The position numbers were made by a program, and so were the translations under genes. From NCBI GenBank assembly GCA_947500445.1, contig CANMSB010000028.1:1-64000 (forward strand): a DNA stretch of 64,000 nt, written 5' to 3'. Positions 5,552-60,688 of this stretch are shown here, piece by piece. The first letter of the stretch is position 1. Each line of letters begins with the position of its first letter. The DNA is from an uncultured Flavobacteriaceae bacterium (GTDB taxonomy: Bacteria; Bacteroidota; Bacteroidia; Flavobacteriales; Flavobacteriaceae). Below the pieces are notes generated by a model that was not told the origin of the DNA, did no database searches, and worked only from the letters and a program-made list of their open reading frames with translations.

Positions 5552-5643
5552 CTGTTTATATCTATTGTTTTTTTTTAATCGTCAGATGTAATTCGCCAAT
5601 AATCATTTCGGTTGGTATCAAGAATTGTTATGGCTCATTTCAT
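5552..5643 (-). promoter_or_regulatory. Shared leader element, copy 1 (upstream of MOSC gene)
   Basis: The core 5581-5639 is identical over 59 bp, on the opposite strand, to 60154-60212. The similarity goes on with few changes to the ATG of each gene (both end AACAGATGAAA). Read as RNA from the minus strand, the core holds two nested complementary pairs, AATTC/GAATT and CCAA/TTGG. A near-consensus -7 box (TATCTTTA on the minus strand, about 5650-5657) would start transcription just before the conserved block. This suggests a 5' UTR element, though a mobile promoter-bearing repeat is the alternative. Confidence 0.6.
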
Positions 5644-5676
5644 AGGTTAAAGATAGCGAACATCGTGTTTTCTTAT

Positions 5677-5861
5677 TGAACTCGTCTTGAGTTTTTGTTT
5701 GGAACCGAGAATGACGGCTTTTGTGTCATAAGGAAGCCATTTTTCGATTGCATAGCTCCCGAGGGTTCGGGACTACGAAAGCTAAAAATATCGAAATTAT
5801 GGCGCAAAATGCGACCCATAAGCGTCGGGGGTAGGTAAAAGAAAAACTCAAGACGAGTTCA
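5677..5861. repeat. Small inverted-repeat element (MITE-like) between MOSC and Crp genes
   Basis: A perfect 20-bp inverted repeat (5677-5696 and 5842-5861, each containing GAACTCGTCTTGAG) bounds 145 bp of non-coding sequence. Inside it is a strong hairpin TCCCGA-GGGT-TCGGGA and a weaker GGCTT/AAGCC pairing. There is no open frame of coding quality. The layout suits a miniature inverted-repeat element or a large processed hairpin; only one copy is present in the window. Confidence 0.6.
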
Positions 5862-18152: not shown

Positions 18153-18176
18153 TACCATTTCAAAAGTAAAATAGTA
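18153..18176. repeat. Solo end of the MITE-like repeat family (remnant)
   Basis: TACCATTTC...AAAATAGTA resembles the terminal inverted repeat of the full elements at 47294 and 49262, with no internal part. It is probably a decayed or deleted copy. It lies between the operon and the htpG terminator. Confidence 0.4.
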
Positions 18177-18186
18177 TAACAAAAAG

Positions 18187-25945: not shown

Positions 25946-26429
25946 AAGCTATTTTTGATTTCCGAAAAGTACGAAATACGACCGGTAACTCTTTTGGGAT
26001 GAAATGAAAATCGAATTTCCATGGTTGACCGTGGGTGGATTGAAGTAGCTAATCCGGTGGTTACTTTTCAGCTGTTCTTCTTTGAAAATATAACCGACGC
26101 TAAGGCAGTGCTGAGATCCCCGGACAAGCCGAGGACAGGCTTTTGCCTTGGACAATTAAAAAACAATTCAATTGCTATACGTACCATTTTAAAGTTAAAC
26201 CCGGATTATGCATTAGAACTTCGTAATGAAGCTGTTAGCTTCGATAAAATATGACATTTTATGAATGTAAGCATGGCACCGCTACGGTTACATTTAAAAA
26301 TGTAGCGCAGCACCATATTTTGAAGTAGCTGGAAGCTGTAATAGATTTTCTAATGCATAAAGCGGGTTAAAATGGTAAAAAGCGAAAATTGATTGTAATT
26401 TTACCAAGAATTGCGACTAAAACGGAAAA
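25946..26429. other. Repeat-rich intergenic region upstream of recR
   Basis: This is a 484-base region without a supported gene. It contains a degraded MITE-like copy (26061-26199) and, around 26255-26305, further imperfect inverted sequences with CGCTAC and GTAGCG arms about 16 bases apart. The only frame of any length (26021-26254) runs through the repeat and is not coding in character. Confidence 0.6.
26061..26199 (+). repeat. MITE-like repeat, degraded copy A
   Basis: It shares with the elements at 47294 and 49262 the block beginning CAGCTGTTCTTC, the segment around TAACCG..GCTAAGGC, the internal GATCCCCGG-N5-CCG(A/G)GGACAGGC hairpin, and a decayed right end (TTTAAAGTTAAAC). The left terminal repeat is not recognisable. 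Confidence 0.7.
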
Positions 26430-43653: not shown

Positions 43654-43679
43654 ATGCCATTTCAAGGTTAAAATGGTAT
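43654..43679. repeat. Solo end of the MITE-like repeat family
   Basis: ATTTCAAGGTTAAAATGGTA (43659-43678) differs at one base from the right terminal repeat of the element at 47294. No internal sequence is present, so it is a remnant or an excision scar. Confidence 0.5.
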
Positions 43680-43807
43680 CAATGGTTTTTGGACTTGTTT
43701 TCGATATCAGGGAAGACGAAAAGCCATTTTTTTCCGTTTAAGCAATGTTCATTAAACCATTTGCAAAATGAGGTGTCCTACCTCTGTACAATTTTAAAAT
43801 AGAAGCC

Positions 43808-44671: not shown

Positions 44672-46708
44672 TTAATGTCTTACGGGAAGCCCTAGAGCCT
44701 CTAATACTTCTTGCGGCAGAAGCACTTTGTCGACAACATGCACAATACCGTTGCTGGCAATTTGATCGGCCAGGGCAACATTGGCATCGGTCGTACTTCT
44801 ATCACGGATACGTACGCCATTTGAAGTAAGCGCGAACAGGGATTCACCTTGAACGGTCACCAACTCTTGGTGATTGCTCAAATCACCCGAAGCTACTGCC
44901 GCACCGGCAATTACATGATAGGTAAGTACCGTGGCCAAAAGCTCTTTTTCTTCGGCAGTGTCAAAATCGGCCAAGCTATTGTAATCAGGTCCTAACGTGT
45001 CAAGCAAATCGGCAAAAGCGGCATTGGTAGGAGCGAAGACCGTAAAGGGTCCTTCACTACTTAATACGTCCACCAAACCGGCATCTGCCTGGATCAAGGC
45101 GTCTACCAAAAGACTAAGATCTGGTACGGATTGTGCCAAGCCAACGATGTTCGGTGTCGGAGGGTTCAATAGGTCCAATACTTCCTGTGGTAAAAGTACT
45201 TTGTTGATGACGTGTACAACCCCGTTACTTGCCGCTACATCGGGAATCACAACACTTGCATTGGTGTCCGTAGCATCCTCAACATGTACGGTTCCGTTTT
45301 TGATATTGATGCCTACATTTTCGCCTTGAACGGTCTGTATCATTTGACCGTTGCTCAAATCGGCAGCGAACGCGGCAGTATCGGCTACAACATGGTAGGT
45401 CAATACCTTTACCAATAAGGCTTTCTCGTCTTCCGTATCAAAATCGGCAAGACTGTTATAATCATCACCCAAGGCTTCAAGAAGTGCAACAAAGGCATCG
45501 TTGGTAGGGGCGAACACGGTAAATGGTCCTTCACTGGAAAGTGTCTCTACCAAACCGGCATCCACTTGTTGTAGGGCACCTACCAATAAGCTCAGATCGT
45601 CCGTTTCAACGGCAATTTCTACAATGGTCTTCAAGCTAAGAGAAGCTACAAAATCAATGGCGGACTGTGGAAGCAATACTTTGTCGATCGTATGGGCCAC
45701 TCCGTTAGAGGCCATAATATCCGTTGCGGTAATGTTTGCATCTACCTCGGAGGCATCTCCGATTACAAAGGTGTCACCAGAAGCGATCACGTCGATAGCA
45801 TTTCCGGTAAGGGCCGTCTCAACGGAACCTTCGGCTAAATCGGCTGCCTTAACTTCAGCGCCTGCGATGACATGGTACAATAGAATATCGGTAAGCAACA
45901 TCATTTCGGCATCGGTATCAAAATCGTCCAAACCGTTGTAATCATCACCTAAAGCACCCAAAAGCGCTACGAAAGCATCGTCGGTCGGGGCAAATACGGT
46001 AAATGGACCTTCACTGGATAGCGTTTCCACCAAACCGGCTTTAATTACGGCGGCTTCCAAAATGGACAATGCTTCGGTCTCTACTACGATTTCCACCAAG
46101 TTTTTGGCATCCATTCCACCATCACCATTAAGGGCATCGATAATTTCCTGTGGCAATAGTACTTTATCGATAAGGTGCACCACCCCATTACTGGCCTCAA
46201 CATTGGCCAAGGTTACTTCTGCCTTGTCCATTGTAGCATCCTTGATAAAAACGCCATCGTCTACCAAACTAATGGTAACATCCTCTCCCTGTAAGGTACC
46301 TATTACCTGTCCATCGCTCAAGTCGGTCGATTTCGCGGCAATTCCGGTAACAACATGGTATTTGAGTATGGTAGCGAGCAAGGCTTTTTCCTCGGCAGTG
46401 TCGAAGTCTTCCAAGGAATCATATCCGTCCAGTCCTTCCAATAAAGCTTCAAAGGCACTGTTAGTTGGAGCGAATACAGTATAGGTAGCGTCGGTATCGC
46501 TAAGTGCCTCTACCAAACCGGCATCGGCCTGTACCAATGCACCTACCAATGAGGATAAGGAGGCCTCCCCAGTTGCTACGGCAGCTATGGTATTGCTACT
46601 GTCGCCACCCCTGTCGGTAGCTTCGTTGTCATCCTTGTCGCACGAGAGTACGAACAAGCTGATCGTTGCGAGGAGCAACATGTTTTTTAAACGGATAAAT
46701 TTTTTCAT
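44672..46708 (-). CDS. Fasciclin (FAS1) repeat lipoprotein with four FAS1 domains
   Basis: A 678-aa lipoprotein (MKKFIRLKNMLLLATISLFVLSC, lipid Cys23). Four FAS1 domains of about 155-160 residues follow (about 40-190, 195-345, 355-510 and 520-672). Each has the H1 motif TVFAPTN.AF and the H2 motif ASNGVVHxIDKVLLPQE. FAS1 domains mediate cell-surface adhesion to proteins or polysaccharides. Domains 2 to 4 are so alike at the DNA level (period about 480 bp) that recombination between them is likely. A second FAS1 lipoprotein gene is nearby at 47784, and both share an upstream motif. Confidence 0.95.
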   Translation of the reverse strand: MKKFIRLKNMLLLATISLFVLSCDKDDNEATDRGGDSSNTIAAVATGEASLSSLVGALVQADAGLVEALSDTDATYTVFAPTNSAFEALLEGLDGYDSLEDFDTAEEKALLATILKYHVVTGIAAKSTDLSDGQVIGTLQGEDVTISLVDDGVFIKDATMDKAEVTLANVEASNGVVHLIDKVLLPQEIIDALNGDGGMDAKNLVEIVVETEALSILEAAVIKAGLVETLSSEGPFTVFAPTDDAFVALLGALGDDYNGLDDFDTDAEMMLLTDILLYHVIAGAEVKAADLAEGSVETALTGNAIDVIASGDTFVIGDASEVDANITATDIMASNGVAHTIDKVLLPQSAIDFVASLSLKTIVEIAVETDDLSLLVGALQQVDAGLVETLSSEGPFTVFAPTNDAFVALLEALGDDYNSLADFDTEDEKALLVKVLTYHVVADTAAFAADLSNGQMIQTVQGENVGINIKNGTVHVEDATDTNASVVIPDVAASNGVVHVINKVLLPQEVLDLLNPPTPNIVGLAQSVPDLSLLVDALIQADAGLVDVLSSEGPFTVFAPTNAAFADLLDTLGPDYNSLADFDTAEEKELLATVLTYHVIAGAAVASGDLSNHQELVTVQGESLFALTSNGVRIRDRSTTDANVALADQIASNGIVHVVDKVLLPQEVLEALGLPVRH

Positions 46709-46909
46709 AATAGTGAACTTTTAGGTGTGAACTGTTTATTTATGTTAATGATTGCCGTTCTGTATCGGGTAACTTTCTTTGGATTTGAATTCTAAACCGA
46801 AATAGCGCTTTGTTTCAGTTTTTTCTTCTTTTAATATCTAAAGTGATGTTTTGATTCAACAGAACAGATTTTTTGTTTAATATATTAGTTAGAGTATTAA
46901 ACATTGAAA

Positions 46910-46952
46910 GGGTTGCTTTTGTTTAATTTATTTTTACAAAAGTTTAACAATT
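46910..46952 (-). promoter_or_regulatory. Motif shared by both fasciclin gene upstream regions, copy 1
   Basis: On the coding strand it reads AATTGTTAAACTTTTGTAAA, then an A/T tract, then AAACAAAAGCAACCC. The same sequence with few changes lies upstream of the second fasciclin gene (48906-48947). It starts about 200 bases before this gene. Its position and conservation suggest a shared promoter or activator site. Confidence 0.55.
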
Positions 46953-47293
46953 TTAATAAAAGGGTACTAGCGCCCAACGTATGTATTTTATCGATCGGAC
47001 TAATGGTTATGGGCCAGGATAAAAGAAATTTTAAATTGTCCTGGAAACTTATTTTTTAATTCATTAAGGTTTTTTTAAGACCTAAATGTTGACTTTTGGA
47101 TTGCTTTACGGGTGTAAATTGTATAATATCTCACATCATTTTTTAAACAAAACGACTTGAAGGTGCTTTTTAAAAAAGATAATCTCCTTCAGTTTTTAAT
47201 GATGATCCACTACCGTCGTACGACTTCCGTCACTTGTTCATTGCATAAAACGAACGGGTAAAACAGGCATGTAGACTTGTATCCCAGACCTTG

Positions 47294-47476
47294 TACCATT
47301 TTAACTTTGAAATAGCACTAATAAATCGTTTCTTTTTCAGCTGTTCTTCGTTAAAAAATATAACCGTAGCTAAGGCTATGCTTGGATCCCCGGTCAAGCC
47401 GGGGACAGGCTTTTTGCCTCGAACAACTAAAAAATAATTCCATTTCTATAAGCGCGATTTCAAAGTTAAAATGGTA
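47294..47476. repeat. MITE-like element, complete copy B
   Basis: A 183-bp non-coding element with perfect 20-bp terminal inverted repeats, TACCATTTTAACTTTGAAAT (47294-47313) and its exact complement (47457-47476). The outermost bases are TA on both sides, as expected for a TA target duplication of an IS630/Tc1-mariner-type transposase. Inside is the hairpin CCCCGG-TCAAG-CCGGGG. Other copies lie at 49262 and 26061. Confidence 0.85.
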
Positions 47477-47732
47477 TTATTTGCGTTTTTCAGGTTCGTA
47501 GACAGATGAACTTTCGGAATAAATATACTGTTGGTGCGCTCACTTTTTTCCTTCTAAAACGGGTCGAAATCAGCTTAGGAACGCTGCTTTTGGATTGGGT
47601 TTGACTTTTATATGGAAGAATATCGAGGGAAGGTCGTTTTGCGGTATTTTAGAAATTCGCTAGGGAATGGTGAGATTGTTTTCGCCTTTGCACGTAGGGT
47701 ATTAGTCTGTTGGAATGAGGTAGGCTATAAAA

Positions 47733-47758
47733 AAAGGCCGCCCTTAAAGGCGGCCTTT
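47733..47758 (-). terminator. Terminator of the second fasciclin gene
   Basis: Perfect 10-bp stem AAAGGCCGCC / GGCGGCCTTT with a 6-base loop. The minus strand runs on into seven T residues. It lies 25 bases after the stop at 47784. Confidence 0.92.
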
Positions 47759-47783
47759 GCTCAACGAGCATTGACAGAAATAC

Positions 47784-48785
47784 TTAGTTGTCCAAGTTAG
47801 GGATAAGTACCGTATCCAGCACATGGATAACGCCGTTTCCAGCCTGTATATCTACCGCTACTATTCCGATGCCTGTGTTACCTGCACCATCGACCACATT
47901 GGCTATAGTACCTGTAATACCTGGCAAGCTTATGGCAATATCATCGCCTTCCAAAGTCGTAGCATTGGTGGTCCCGTCCGGGGTCAGGTCTCCCGACCGT
48001 ACATTTGCACCGGCCACTACATGATGTTGTAAAATGGGGGTCAAGGTATCTTCGGCCGGAATGGCATCCAATTTTGCGAAGGCCTCATCGGTCGGTGCGA
48101 ACACGGTAAATGGAGCCGGAGCCGTTCCGTTTGCAGTGCTAAGGGTGGCCGCAAAATCCGTATCGGGAGTCAATTCCGTCAATGCGCTCAACAAGGTTTC
48201 AAACCTTGGGTCAGCCTGAACAAAGGTAACTACAGTAGGAATGTCGATTACCGCATCAATTATATGTACAACCCCATTGGTTGCAAAATTATCGGCACTT
48301 GATACGGACGGTCCACCATTGAAGGTAACACCGCTGGAGGTATCAAAATACAGGCTGATGTTGGTTCCGTCGGCAATTCCGGCCGCGGCCGTATTGGCAT
48401 ACCCTGCTCCCAAGGCGGTAAGATCGCCAGCGGTCAATGGTGCGTTGCCGGCTATTACATGCCCTAGTAGTATTTGCTCCAATACTTCGGTAGGGACATC
48501 CTCGAGAGTGGCAAAACCTTTGTCGGCCAAAAAAGCGTCAAAAGCGGCATTGGTCGGTGCCAATACAGTAAAATTGCCATCTCCAGCTAAGGTGCTTACC
48601 AGATCTGCGCGATCCAAAGCTGCCACCAAAGTGGAAAGGTCGTTCGAAGCCTGGGCGAGTTCAACAATAGTGTTTGTGGCGTCCATATTTGGGTCAGGGT
48701 CGTTATCGTCGTCACTACAGGAAACGAAAACACTGCATAATACGGTTAAGAGTAAAAATGATTTCAGTTTCAAAAACTTTTTCAT
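47784..48785 (-). CDS. Fasciclin lipoprotein with two FAS1 domains
   Basis: A 333-aa lipoprotein (MKKFLKLKSFLLLTVLCSVFVSC then SDDDNDPDPN). Two FAS1 domains follow, about 36-180 and 185-330, each with TVLAPTNAAF or TVFAPTDEAF and NGVIHVLDTVLIP-like motifs. Together with the four-domain protein next door it probably acts in surface adhesion. The two are about as divergent as separate paralogues, not a recent duplication, yet share the leader motif upstream. Confidence 0.95.
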   Translation of the reverse strand: MKKFLKLKSFLLLTVLCSVFVSCSDDDNDPDPNMDATNTIVELAQASNDLSTLVAALDRADLVSTLAGDGNFTVLAPTNAAFDAFLADKGFATLEDVPTEVLEQILLGHVIAGNAPLTAGDLTALGAGYANTAAAGIADGTNISLYFDTSSGVTFNGGPSVSSADNFATNGVVHIIDAVIDIPTVVTFVQADPRFETLLSALTELTPDTDFAATLSTANGTAPAPFTVFAPTDEAFAKLDAIPAEDTLTPILQHHVVAGANVRSGDLTPDGTTNATTLEGDDIAISLPGITGTIANVVDGAGNTGIGIVAVDIQAGNGVIHVLDTVLIPNLDN

Positions 48786-49261: not shown

Positions 49262-49421
49262 TACCATTTTAACTTTGAAATAGAACGAATAAATCGCTTC
49301 TTTTTCAGCTGTTCTTCGTTAAAAAATAGAACCGTAGCTAAGGCTATGCTTCCATTTTTTGCCTCGAACAACTAAAAATTAATTCAATTTCTATATGCGC
49401 GATTTCACAGTTAAAATAGTA
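49262..49421. repeat. MITE-like element, copy C (internal deletion)
   Basis: 160 bp with the same left terminal repeat as copy B (20/20) and a right repeat with two changes, ending in TA. It lacks the GATCCCCGG hairpin segment present in copies A and B, so it is a deletion derivative. It ends directly upstream of mnmA. Confidence 0.8.
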
Positions 49422-49440
49422 TAACTCACTTTATGATATT

Positions 49441-59930: not shown

Positions 59931-60153
59931 GTAAACTATTTTTTAGCGGGTAAAAGTAACCAATTATACCCAATTCCATTGGGAAGCTATGAGGAACGGA
60001 CATGAAGAATGTATGGGGGTTTTGATAGTCGTACATCCGTTAAAAAAAGTGCCGTGGCCCTCCATTTTTATGTTAAAACGCTCATAAACCCAAAGGTGCC
60101 CGCGCAACCGATGAAGGAAGCCGTTATCTTATTACCAAACGCTTACATTATGG

Positions 60154-60238
60154 AATGAGCCATAACAATTCTTGATACCAACCGAAATGATTATTGGCGA
60201 ATTACATCTGACAATTAAAAAACAATAAATATTAACAG
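60154..60238 (+). promoter_or_regulatory. Shared leader element, copy 2 (upstream of lipoprotein gene)
   Basis: The core 60154-60212 is identical over 59 bp to 5581-5639 (opposite strand). The following A-rich stretch up to the ATG differs at a few places. Nested complementary pairs AATTC (60167-60171)/GAATT (60199-60203) and CCAA (60178-60181)/TTGG (60194-60197) could form a stem-loop in RNA. The rest of the gene-free region 59931-60153 shows nothing recognisable. Confidence 0.6.
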
Positions 60239-60688
60239 ATGAAACGTCTCCTATCTTTTTGTATGCTTACCGTACTGATCTCCTGTTCAACATCGGAAAA
60301 ATCCGGTAAAACCATTTCGATTCCCGCAAAGGGAAAAGATTTGCCCCAAAAATGGAAACTGACCGCGATGACCGGGATGATTGCCAATGTGCCTCCGATC
60401 AGCGGGAACGATATGGAATACCAAGAAGTTTTGTTGCTGCATTCCGATAGTACCTTTACCAAAACTAGAGAGCGGGACGGAAACATCATGGAAAGCTCCG
60501 GAGGTTTTGAAATTGTGGCCGAAACGGATGGCGATTATTTGGTATTATCGTATCCCGAAAAAAATGAACTGGTCGGTAACTGCTCCAATGAACCGAAAGA
60601 ATGGTTCCGTTTTGATTCGGAAACGCAACTGGTGGGTACTTGGTGGGCCTGTGATGGTCCTGGACTCTTTTTTGAGCGTCAGGACTGA
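60239..60688 (+). CDS. Small lipoprotein of unknown function (lipocalin-like size)
   Basis: A 149-aa lipoprotein with the signal MKRLLSFCMLTVLISC. The mature part is strand-rich and begins with KWKLTAMTGMIANVPP, a pattern seen in the small lipocalin-like or META-type lipoproteins of Bacteroidota, with a central FTKTRERDGNIMESSGGF. I cannot name a family with confidence. Its leader is shared with the MOSC gene at 5551. Confidence 0.75.
   Translation: MKRLLSFCMLTVLISCSTSEKSGKTISIPAKGKDLPQKWKLTAMTGMIANVPPISGNDMEYQEVLLLHSDSTFTKTRERDGNIMESSGGFEIVAETDGDYLVLSYPEKNELVGNCSNEPKEWFRFDSETQLVGTWWACDGPGLFFERQD

Follow-up and report, generated by a model that had tools for sequence, protein, structure and literature searches.

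In the stretch of 64,000 nucleotides analysed here (the window), taken from an uncultured Flavobacteriaceae bacterium, a MOSC-domain gene and a lipoprotein-like gene with unrelated coding sequences are preceded by one and the same leader. How did two such genes come to share it? A preliminary description of this DNA had reported a 59-bp identity that continues as similarity up to both start codons, and had proposed a shared leader RNA, a common operator or a mobile promoter repeat that inserts in front of genes. The identity is borne out (Table 1), and the likeness extends through both start codons: on the left it begins at ATGAAATGAGCC (MOSC copy) or ATGGAATGAGCC (second copy), and on the right it takes in the AAA behind the start codon. 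A repeat search of the window gives the pair as an 80-nt inverted match of 95%. With up to three mismatches allowed, a 48-bp core has only these two matches in the whole window, both exact, and none in 100 dinucleotide shuffles of it. The 149-aa lipoprotein-like protein has no Pfam match at E 0.01. Rfam 15 gives no match at the gathering threshold in the window; a permissive Rfam search around one copy gives three weak matches, far below threshold.

Our answer, to which we assign a probability of about 0.85, is that a mobile DNA element, small (about 90 bp) and non-autonomous, has supplied the leader: it takes the ATGA of a start codon as its insertion site, with a strong preference for ATGAAA, and is thereafter flanked by ATGA at either end. 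The DNA itself displays an exact insertion point, flanking ATGA, unrelated targets, tandems sharing one ATGAAA, degraded copies and a conserved fold, from which we infer that the element moves.

Table 1. Positions of the two element copies and of associated features in the window.
Feature	Position	Strand	Remarks
Element copy, MOSC gene leader	5552-5643	minus	92 bp, ATGAAATGAGCC ... AACAG, abuts ATG 5551-5549
Element copy, lipoprotein-like gene leader	60150-60238	plus	89 bp, ATGGAATGAGCC ... AACAG, abuts ATG 60239-60241
59-bp identical block	5581-5639	minus	partner 60154-60212
59-bp identical block	60154-60212	plus	partner 5581-5639
MOSC-domain gene, 210 aa	4919-5551	minus	PF03473, E 3.7e-32; reads from the right-hand start-codon copy
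Lipoprotein-like gene, 149 aa, MKRLLSFCMLTVLISCSTSEKSG...	60239-60688	plus	putative lipoprotein, by look only
Promoter-like box TATCTTTA	5648-5655	minus	4 bases upstream of the left ATG; not part of the element
CAGATG, 3' strand of helix P2 over the start codon	5549-5554	minus	predicted pairing probability 0.97-0.99
CAGATG, 3' strand of helix P2 over the start codon	60236-60241	plus	predicted pairing probability 0.96-0.99

Copies in the genome and across the family

With a 103-bp query, 22 near-full copies (91-100%) and two partial ones are found in the bacterium's own 5.18-Mb genome. The ends of the near-full copies are TATGAAATGAGCC on the left and ..AACAG|ATGAAA on the right, each of them exact or slightly varied; a typical copy measures about 90 bp, starts with ATGAAATGAGC or a near variant and stops just before ATG. 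The exact left end ATGAAATGAGC occurs at 36 sites of this genome, 33 of which are elements, and its reversed form, used as a control pattern, occurs at none. A full-length transposon with matching ends is found at none of the 36 sites. A second subfamily (type 2, 132 bp, with a longer stem) has 12 near-full copies and eight partial matches in the same genome; six of the latter (L136-L141) form a shorter type 3 of about 62 bp with similar ends, and L133 is a chimera of types 1 and 2. In the other nine genomes of the genus, only one 24-base match to type 2 is obtained at E 0.001. Types 2 and 3, together with the L133 chimera (L121-L141), suggest that modules are exchanged between elements. An extra module around TCGAAGATTCAYGAACTCC occupies the hairpin region of a copy from genome G078 and of two Arenibacter records (L475, L342, L384).

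Elements also stand directly next to one another. At L007 and L008, type 2 is followed by type 1, and at L010 the order is the opposite; in all three cases, one ATGAAA is common to both neighbours. Overlapping neighbours are also present in G145 (L264) and G341 (L320). The base preceding the left ATG is T in 91 of 122 copies and G in the tandems, where it comes from the preceding CAG; in the metG genes described below, it is the base found in relatives with an empty site (T or G). Hence, this T is not borne by the element.

Searches beyond this genome used a covariance model, R1, built from 20 copies of the genus that all end in ATGAAA, so that it favours such copies. It finds matches in 67 of 149 genomes of the family, our own included (E 1e-3), in 7 of 10 genomes of the genus (E 0.1) and in 23 of 392 genomes of the phylum (E 1e-4), 18 of these belonging to the same family and five lying outside it; in the family and phylum searches, high per-genome copy counts are "at least" values. 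The exact core TGGCGAATTACATCTGACC occurs in at least 107 stretches among named records and, among the matches listed, in the genera Maribacter, Arenibacter, Tenacibaculum, Seonamhaeicola, Snuella, Leeuwenhoekiella, Gillisia and Christiangramia. One and the same small gene (MKTDELQE.KKIDLEPFYQALEDDPKLLEEALEILLGMV) bears the element in Gillisia and Aequorivita (L325, L358), and the two have perhaps moved together. One Nitrosomonas record with the core pattern was rejected, the element's ends being absent from it. Phage and plasmid records give no match to one copy at E 0.01, and an 18-base core is found in no viral contig; a virus origin was dropped, as the single match of another pattern in viral contigs sits in sequence without the element's ends.

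Placement at the start codon

The insertion point can be read in relatives without the element. The MOSC locus of our genome reads ..CTATCTTTAACCT|ATGAAATGAGCC..AACAG|ATGAAAATC, and its element-free orthologues read ..TATCTTTACTAT|ATGAAAATC in G004 and ..TATCTTTATCGT|ATGAAAATC in G007. Nine MOSC orthologues of the genus, compared over 170 bases each, are all devoid of the element. The box upstream of the leader, which was already noticed in the preliminary description and which we too regard as promoter-like, is indeed present as TATCTTTA, and it recurs in eight of the nine element-free orthologues; seven of the nine have it 4 bases before ATG. In the MOSC case at least, the proposal of a mobile promoter thus fails, since the box lies outside the element and is found in relatives without it. 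Judging from this arrangement, the native MOSC mRNA is probably leaderless or nearly so. The region between the MOSC gene and its neighbour also holds a 24-nt inverted repeat, TGAACTCGTCTTGAGTTTTTGTTT (96%, 5677-5700 / 5838-5861), and G002 has a comparable word, CGTCTTGAGTT, ahead of its MOSC orthologue (L166).

In Flavobacterium metG, the break in ..AATAAAATTGAGTT|ATGATACAG falls precisely at the start codon and is bordered left and right by ATGA. The empty site of G644 reads ..CACTCAATAAAATTGAGTT|ATGATACAAAATCC, and the filled site of G696 reads ..CACTCAATAAAATTGAGTT|ATGAAATGAGC..CAACAT|ATGATACAGAATCC. Six of 29 Flavobacterium genomes are filled and 23 are without the element, the 29 metG genes being the best DNA matches to the filled copy of G322 and therefore a non-random sample. 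The matching flank adjoins ATG in 22 of the 23 unfilled genes; the remaining one (G703) has a different leader and no clean empty site. At this start, a degraded element is also seen in a thirtieth metG, that of G659. On a metG tree made from 1500 coding bases, three changes are needed and supported branches force at least three gain or loss events, so that insertion, or exact loss, has recurred at one and the same codon.

These sites also bound the length of the duplication. Empty metG sites read ATGATA or ATGACA, and one reads ATGTTA. In filled genes, the right copy keeps ATGATA and the left copy reads ATGAAA in five of six cases and ATAAAA in G686. The duplication is therefore ATGA at most, and a six-base duplication of ATGAAA, considered initially, was dropped because the right copy is still ATGATA. 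With ATGA on both sides in metG, a 4-bp duplication and an ATGA borne by the element look alike. A second Flavobacterium locus (G480 versus G713) was discarded because its A-rich leaders fit the flank and the tail of the element equally well.

One exception to the placement is menC (L012), where the element lies ahead of a TAAATTTG box rather than at the start codon; in the relative G009, this place reads AAAATATAGCTAAATTTGAAA. At the same locus, the element is preceded by TACCATTTGAAGGTTAAAATGG, which resembles a second dispersed repeat of the window, with inverted arms around TACCATTTTAACTTTGAAAT (26140-26206, 47294-47477, 49262-49422, 18157-18180 and 43659-43682), and this looks like another small repeat family. 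The window further contains, at 45015-48608, repeated segments spaced by about 480 bp, which resemble fasciclin-type repeats on the minus strand.

To describe the placement in general, 122 distinct copies were counted (22 from our genome and 100 others, duplicate sites dropped), types 2 and 3 and the two partial type 1 copies being excluded. The right-hand ATG opens an ORF of at least 60 aa in 106 of them (102 of at least 100 aa, four of 60-99 aa); among the other 16, 14 open ORFs of less than 60 aa and two run past the end of the available sequence. Two of the copies with short ORFs stand just before a long ORF, which begins 4 bases (L248) or 16 bases (L012) after the hexamer. The right-hand word is ATGA in 122/122 and ATGAAA in 114/122, the search model itself having contained ATGAAA. 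As a comparison, 13 of the 24 gene starts of the window that read ATGA continue as ATGAAA, a count based on crude gene calls and including both element-bearing genes; the excess in the copies is significant (Fisher p 8e-6). Likewise, the window has 24 ATGAAA sites that do not lie within genes, 13 of them being gene starts, and 106/122 is in excess of this proportion (p 6e-4). Part of the association with start codons thus comes from the target word itself, together with the loss of insertions within genes. Among 80 copies located in loci of at least 3 kb, four have their site within a long stretch free of stop codons, and each of these sites itself starts an ORF of at least 128 aa; in the same loci, 87 of 146 other ATGAAA sites lie inside such a stretch. 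The left-hand ATGA copy often reads AUGAAAUGA (Met-Lys-stop).

The genes that follow the element are almost all unrelated. Comparison of 104 downstream proteins gives five similar pairs, two of which are close orthologues. Seven proteins were tested against NCBIfam: MetG (L254), YsxC/EngB (L259), YchF (L249), Cmk (L067), ArgH (L022) and PurE (L076) pass the curated cut-offs, and a phosphofructokinase relative (L070) falls below them. AnmK, YaaA, Tgt, MenC and the thioesterase are what we take other products to be, by recognition. With downstream genes as diverse as metG, engB, cmk and argH, there is no regulon of related genes, and like genes do not recur downstream across species as they would for the riboswitch of a pathway. 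The earlier suggestion of a shared leader RNA therefore holds for a structure, as will be seen, and not for a riboswitch governing a gene set.

Not every copy is a fresh insertion, since some placements are shared or recur: those at the thioesterase gene, those in a four-member metG clade and, across genera, those at yaaA and tgt. The thioesterase start bears a type 3 element in our genome; in relatives, the model detects degraded leaders resembling type 1 in G004 (E 8.8e-6) and G001 (E 0.004), and those of G006 and G009 are similar by eye. Such degradation indicates that old copies at this start are not kept by strong selection. Clade-shared placements, in the four Flavobacterium metG genes and at the thioesterase within the window's genus, are what one would expect if each gene had possessed an ancestral leader that was kept or lost by lineage without any mobility. 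However, copies at unrelated genes of our genome are 95-100% identical to the query, full-length matches in congeners reach 72-86% in nine of ten cases (98% in one, G004), and there are tandem copies and base-exact empty sites; we regard such an immobile ancestry as highly improbable. The earlier idea of a mobile repeat inserting before genes, by contrast, is backed by the many copies, the unrelated genes, the empty sites, the tandems and the decayed copies.

Fold, translation and the search for a partner

The left part of the element forms a hairpin, P1, written ATG.N.AAY.GA.GCCA / TGGC.GA.RTT.N.CAT. In 102 distinct rows, 94.2% of its cells are paired and 50 carry changes on both sides, versus 8.2 +/- 2.6 in shuffles; slid controls are 24-54% paired, with at most 15 such cells. 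Six pairs show both-sided changes versus 4.1 in shuffles, and 36 of 500 shuffles reach six, so that P1 draws its strength from the cell count, in which related sequences enter repeatedly. In variants, the GA/GA step is replaced by Watson-Crick pairs (AATGTCCA/TGGACATT, AATGCCCA/TGGGCATT). These counts lean towards the stem, which was drawn by hand from genus copies and to which the wide alignment, A2, was then fitted. RNAalifold found no structure in the first alignment, and within the genus the hand-made stem showed no covariation, which appeared only with the wider set. A2 comprises 100 sources; it leaves out 21 of 60 loci (L264-L271, L273-L275, L291, L300, L305, L308, L310, L315, L316, L320, L321 and L323), 4 of the 18 loci L246-L263 (L252, L255, L257 and L263) and weaker genus loci. 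The helices proposed earlier, AATTC/GAATT and CCAA/TTGG, can form in both window copies but are poorly conserved, with 70% and 69% of cells paired versus 93% for the seven P1 pairs in 104 rows of A2, a comparison that favours P1 because A2 was fitted to it.

A second helix, P2, pairs CATCTG with CAGATG over the start codon. It is paired in 94.4% of cells and has seven cells with both-sided changes (1.3 +/- 1.1 in shuffles), all of them at one pair, which shows several pair types. One covarying pair is reached by 377 of 500 shuffles, and a register slid by -3 also gives seven such cells, though at 21.7% pairing. P2 thus appears well kept and weakly proven. Covariation, which had been proposed as a check of the leader, is therefore strong in P1 and confined to one pair in P2. 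The same CAT serves as foot of P1 and in P2, so that the left AUG and the start AUG compete. A third hairpin is conceivable in some copies, which have additional, partly GC-rich sequence located between P1 and P2.

In Flavobacterium johnsoniae, A residues at -3, -6, -12 and -13 promote initiation, whereas structure hinders it (PMC6847099). The common tail of the element, ..AAAATTTAAACAG, has A at -6, -12 and -13, and C at -3, where it is part of P2. To judge from these positions, the tail looks suited to initiation and P2 opposed to it. One might then see in the element a genome-wide leader for translational control, copied between genes, in which the CAUCUG/CAGAUG hairpin over the start codon is freed by a protein, by temperature or when the decoy AUG upstream competes for pairing with the same CAU. 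The good conservation of P2, its seven both-sided changes, its almost complete formation in both window copies (predicted probability 0.96-0.99) and an A-rich tail that is alike across genera before ATG all agree with such a role. However, the genes downstream are almost all unrelated, old copies decay, and 16 of the 122 copies open no ORF of 60 aa within the available sequence; moreover, P2 covaries at one of six pairs, the -3 slide equals its cell count, and its pairing could instead serve the recognition of DNA. We consider such a control function rather unlikely.

For the mobile element, the following course of events would account for the observations. Insertion would take place at the ATGA of a start codon, the right-hand copy becoming the start codon of the gene and the left-hand copy a decoy start. 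The gene would keep its protein, which may be why insertion at a start codon is tolerated; in the cases compared it would also keep its upstream DNA, and it would gain a structured leader whose end is rich in A. The direct ATGA copies, the covarying hairpin abutting the left copy, the shared tandem cores and the absence of visible inverted ends suggest that the element is recognized as a folded single strand. At its 3' foot, the hairpin reads TTNCAT and then CTG; this foot may pair with both ATGNAA on the left and CAGATG on the right, and a new ATGAAA target would be bound according to the same rule. The complementarity of TTNCAT to ATGNAA would fit the preference for ATGAAA. Such foot pairing can be likened to the guide sequences used by IS200/IS605-type transposons. 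More speculatively, the family may represent a class of start-seeking mobile elements, whose guide TTNCATCTG pairs with the left end, the right end and the ATGAAA target, which duplicate the start codon and whose decoy AUG can switch the start-codon hairpin.

Which enzyme could move it? Neither an autonomous element nor a transposase with these ends was found. As a special case of our explanation, a Y1 (HUH) transposase of the IS200/IS605 or RAYT type, encoded in the same genomes, might mobilise the element, which would then be a non-autonomous derivative. This reading would agree with the hairpin beside a short fixed target word, with ATGA at both ends and with a foot complementary to both ends. 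Y1 transposase genes (PF01797) are present in 32 of 67 genomes with the element and in 27 of 82 without (p 0.09). The six genomes richest in matches (18-27, as "at least" values) all have at least four PF01797 genes, and the counts of matches and of PF01797 genes are weakly correlated (Spearman 0.23, p 0.005), which may reflect a general load of mobile DNA. G000 and G145, the two genomes with near-identical copies among those searched for PF01797, possess such genes. On the other hand, PF01797 is absent from 7 of the 16 genomes with at least eight matches, a search with R1 of 14 loci of the genus that hold PF01797 detects no element next to the gene (best E 0.13), and the IS200-like elements examined carry different hairpins at their ends. 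In G069, which has no Y1 transposase, no pair among nine copies compared exceeds about 0.91 identity, so that a partner may have been lost there. This identity of the mobilising enzyme is, at present, a tentative proposal. Less probable still, and by a wide margin, is a leftover of a DDE transposon, that is a strict MITE, with a target preference for ATGA. The element is short, non-coding, present in many copies and flanked by a direct repeat of a few bases, as such a leftover would be; yet the consensus ends, TGAGCCATAA.. and the complement of ..TTTAAACAG, reveal no terminal inverted repeats on reading, and what is conserved between genera is one asymmetric hairpin.

Relation to known elements and meaning for the family

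Several known systems share features with the element. Non-autonomous elements of the IS200/IS605 type also have a subterminal hairpin, a short fixed adjacent target word and possible pairing between foot and ends; the element has their single-strand subterminal hairpin and fixed adjacent word, the P1 alignment having been fitted to the stem. Unlike them, it has no TnpA partner found with these ends, its target is the start codon and one guide-like foot would serve both ends. REP/BIME sequences with RAYT transposases are small dispersed hairpins with mismatched stems and many copies as well. We know of no fixed start-codon position for REPs, and the RAYT-like genes of the genus are flanked not by the element but by other palindromes, such as GACGAGCGCTAGCG (L237) and GCGCGAGCGTCACGCTCGTA (L234), perhaps a separate REP-like system.

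Bacterial MITEs, as presented in the part of a review consulted (PMC10969869), are likewise short, non-autonomous, non-coding and multi-copy, with a short flanking direct repeat. The element differs from them in that it lacks visible terminal inverted repeats, is mostly placed at a start codon with the same orientation as the gene, and has a covarying fold; the term "start codon" is absent from that part of the review. The Rickettsia palindromic elements, covered in the same review (PMC10969869), are also small repeats that enter genes without destroying them, but they can enter ORFs and add coding sequence, whereas the present element precedes the ORF and leaves the protein unchanged. The TAACTGA direct repeats (PMC4679880) also lie directly before start codons of unrelated genes, some of them in Bacteroidetes; they are tandem heptamers of another sequence. 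The part of PMC11109978 consulted names no Flavobacteria. In the open-licence literature, searched by title or abstract opening, no description of the element family is found among the matches listed, and the family is apparently undescribed.

Many mobile elements limit the harm that they cause by landing between genes or in tRNA genes. Elements of the present family land on start codons, which the insertion itself re-creates, such that even metG, engB and cmk, which are usually essential, carry copies. The 5' leaders of genes are thereby rewritten across a bacterial family: a gene whose promoter abuts its ATG may become one with a structured leader of 90 nt. Annotation may be misled, as the left ATGAAATGA is a false start. 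Close relatives, in turn, provide natural pairs of genes with and without the leader, by which the effect of leader structure on translation without a Shine-Dalgarno sequence becomes directly testable.
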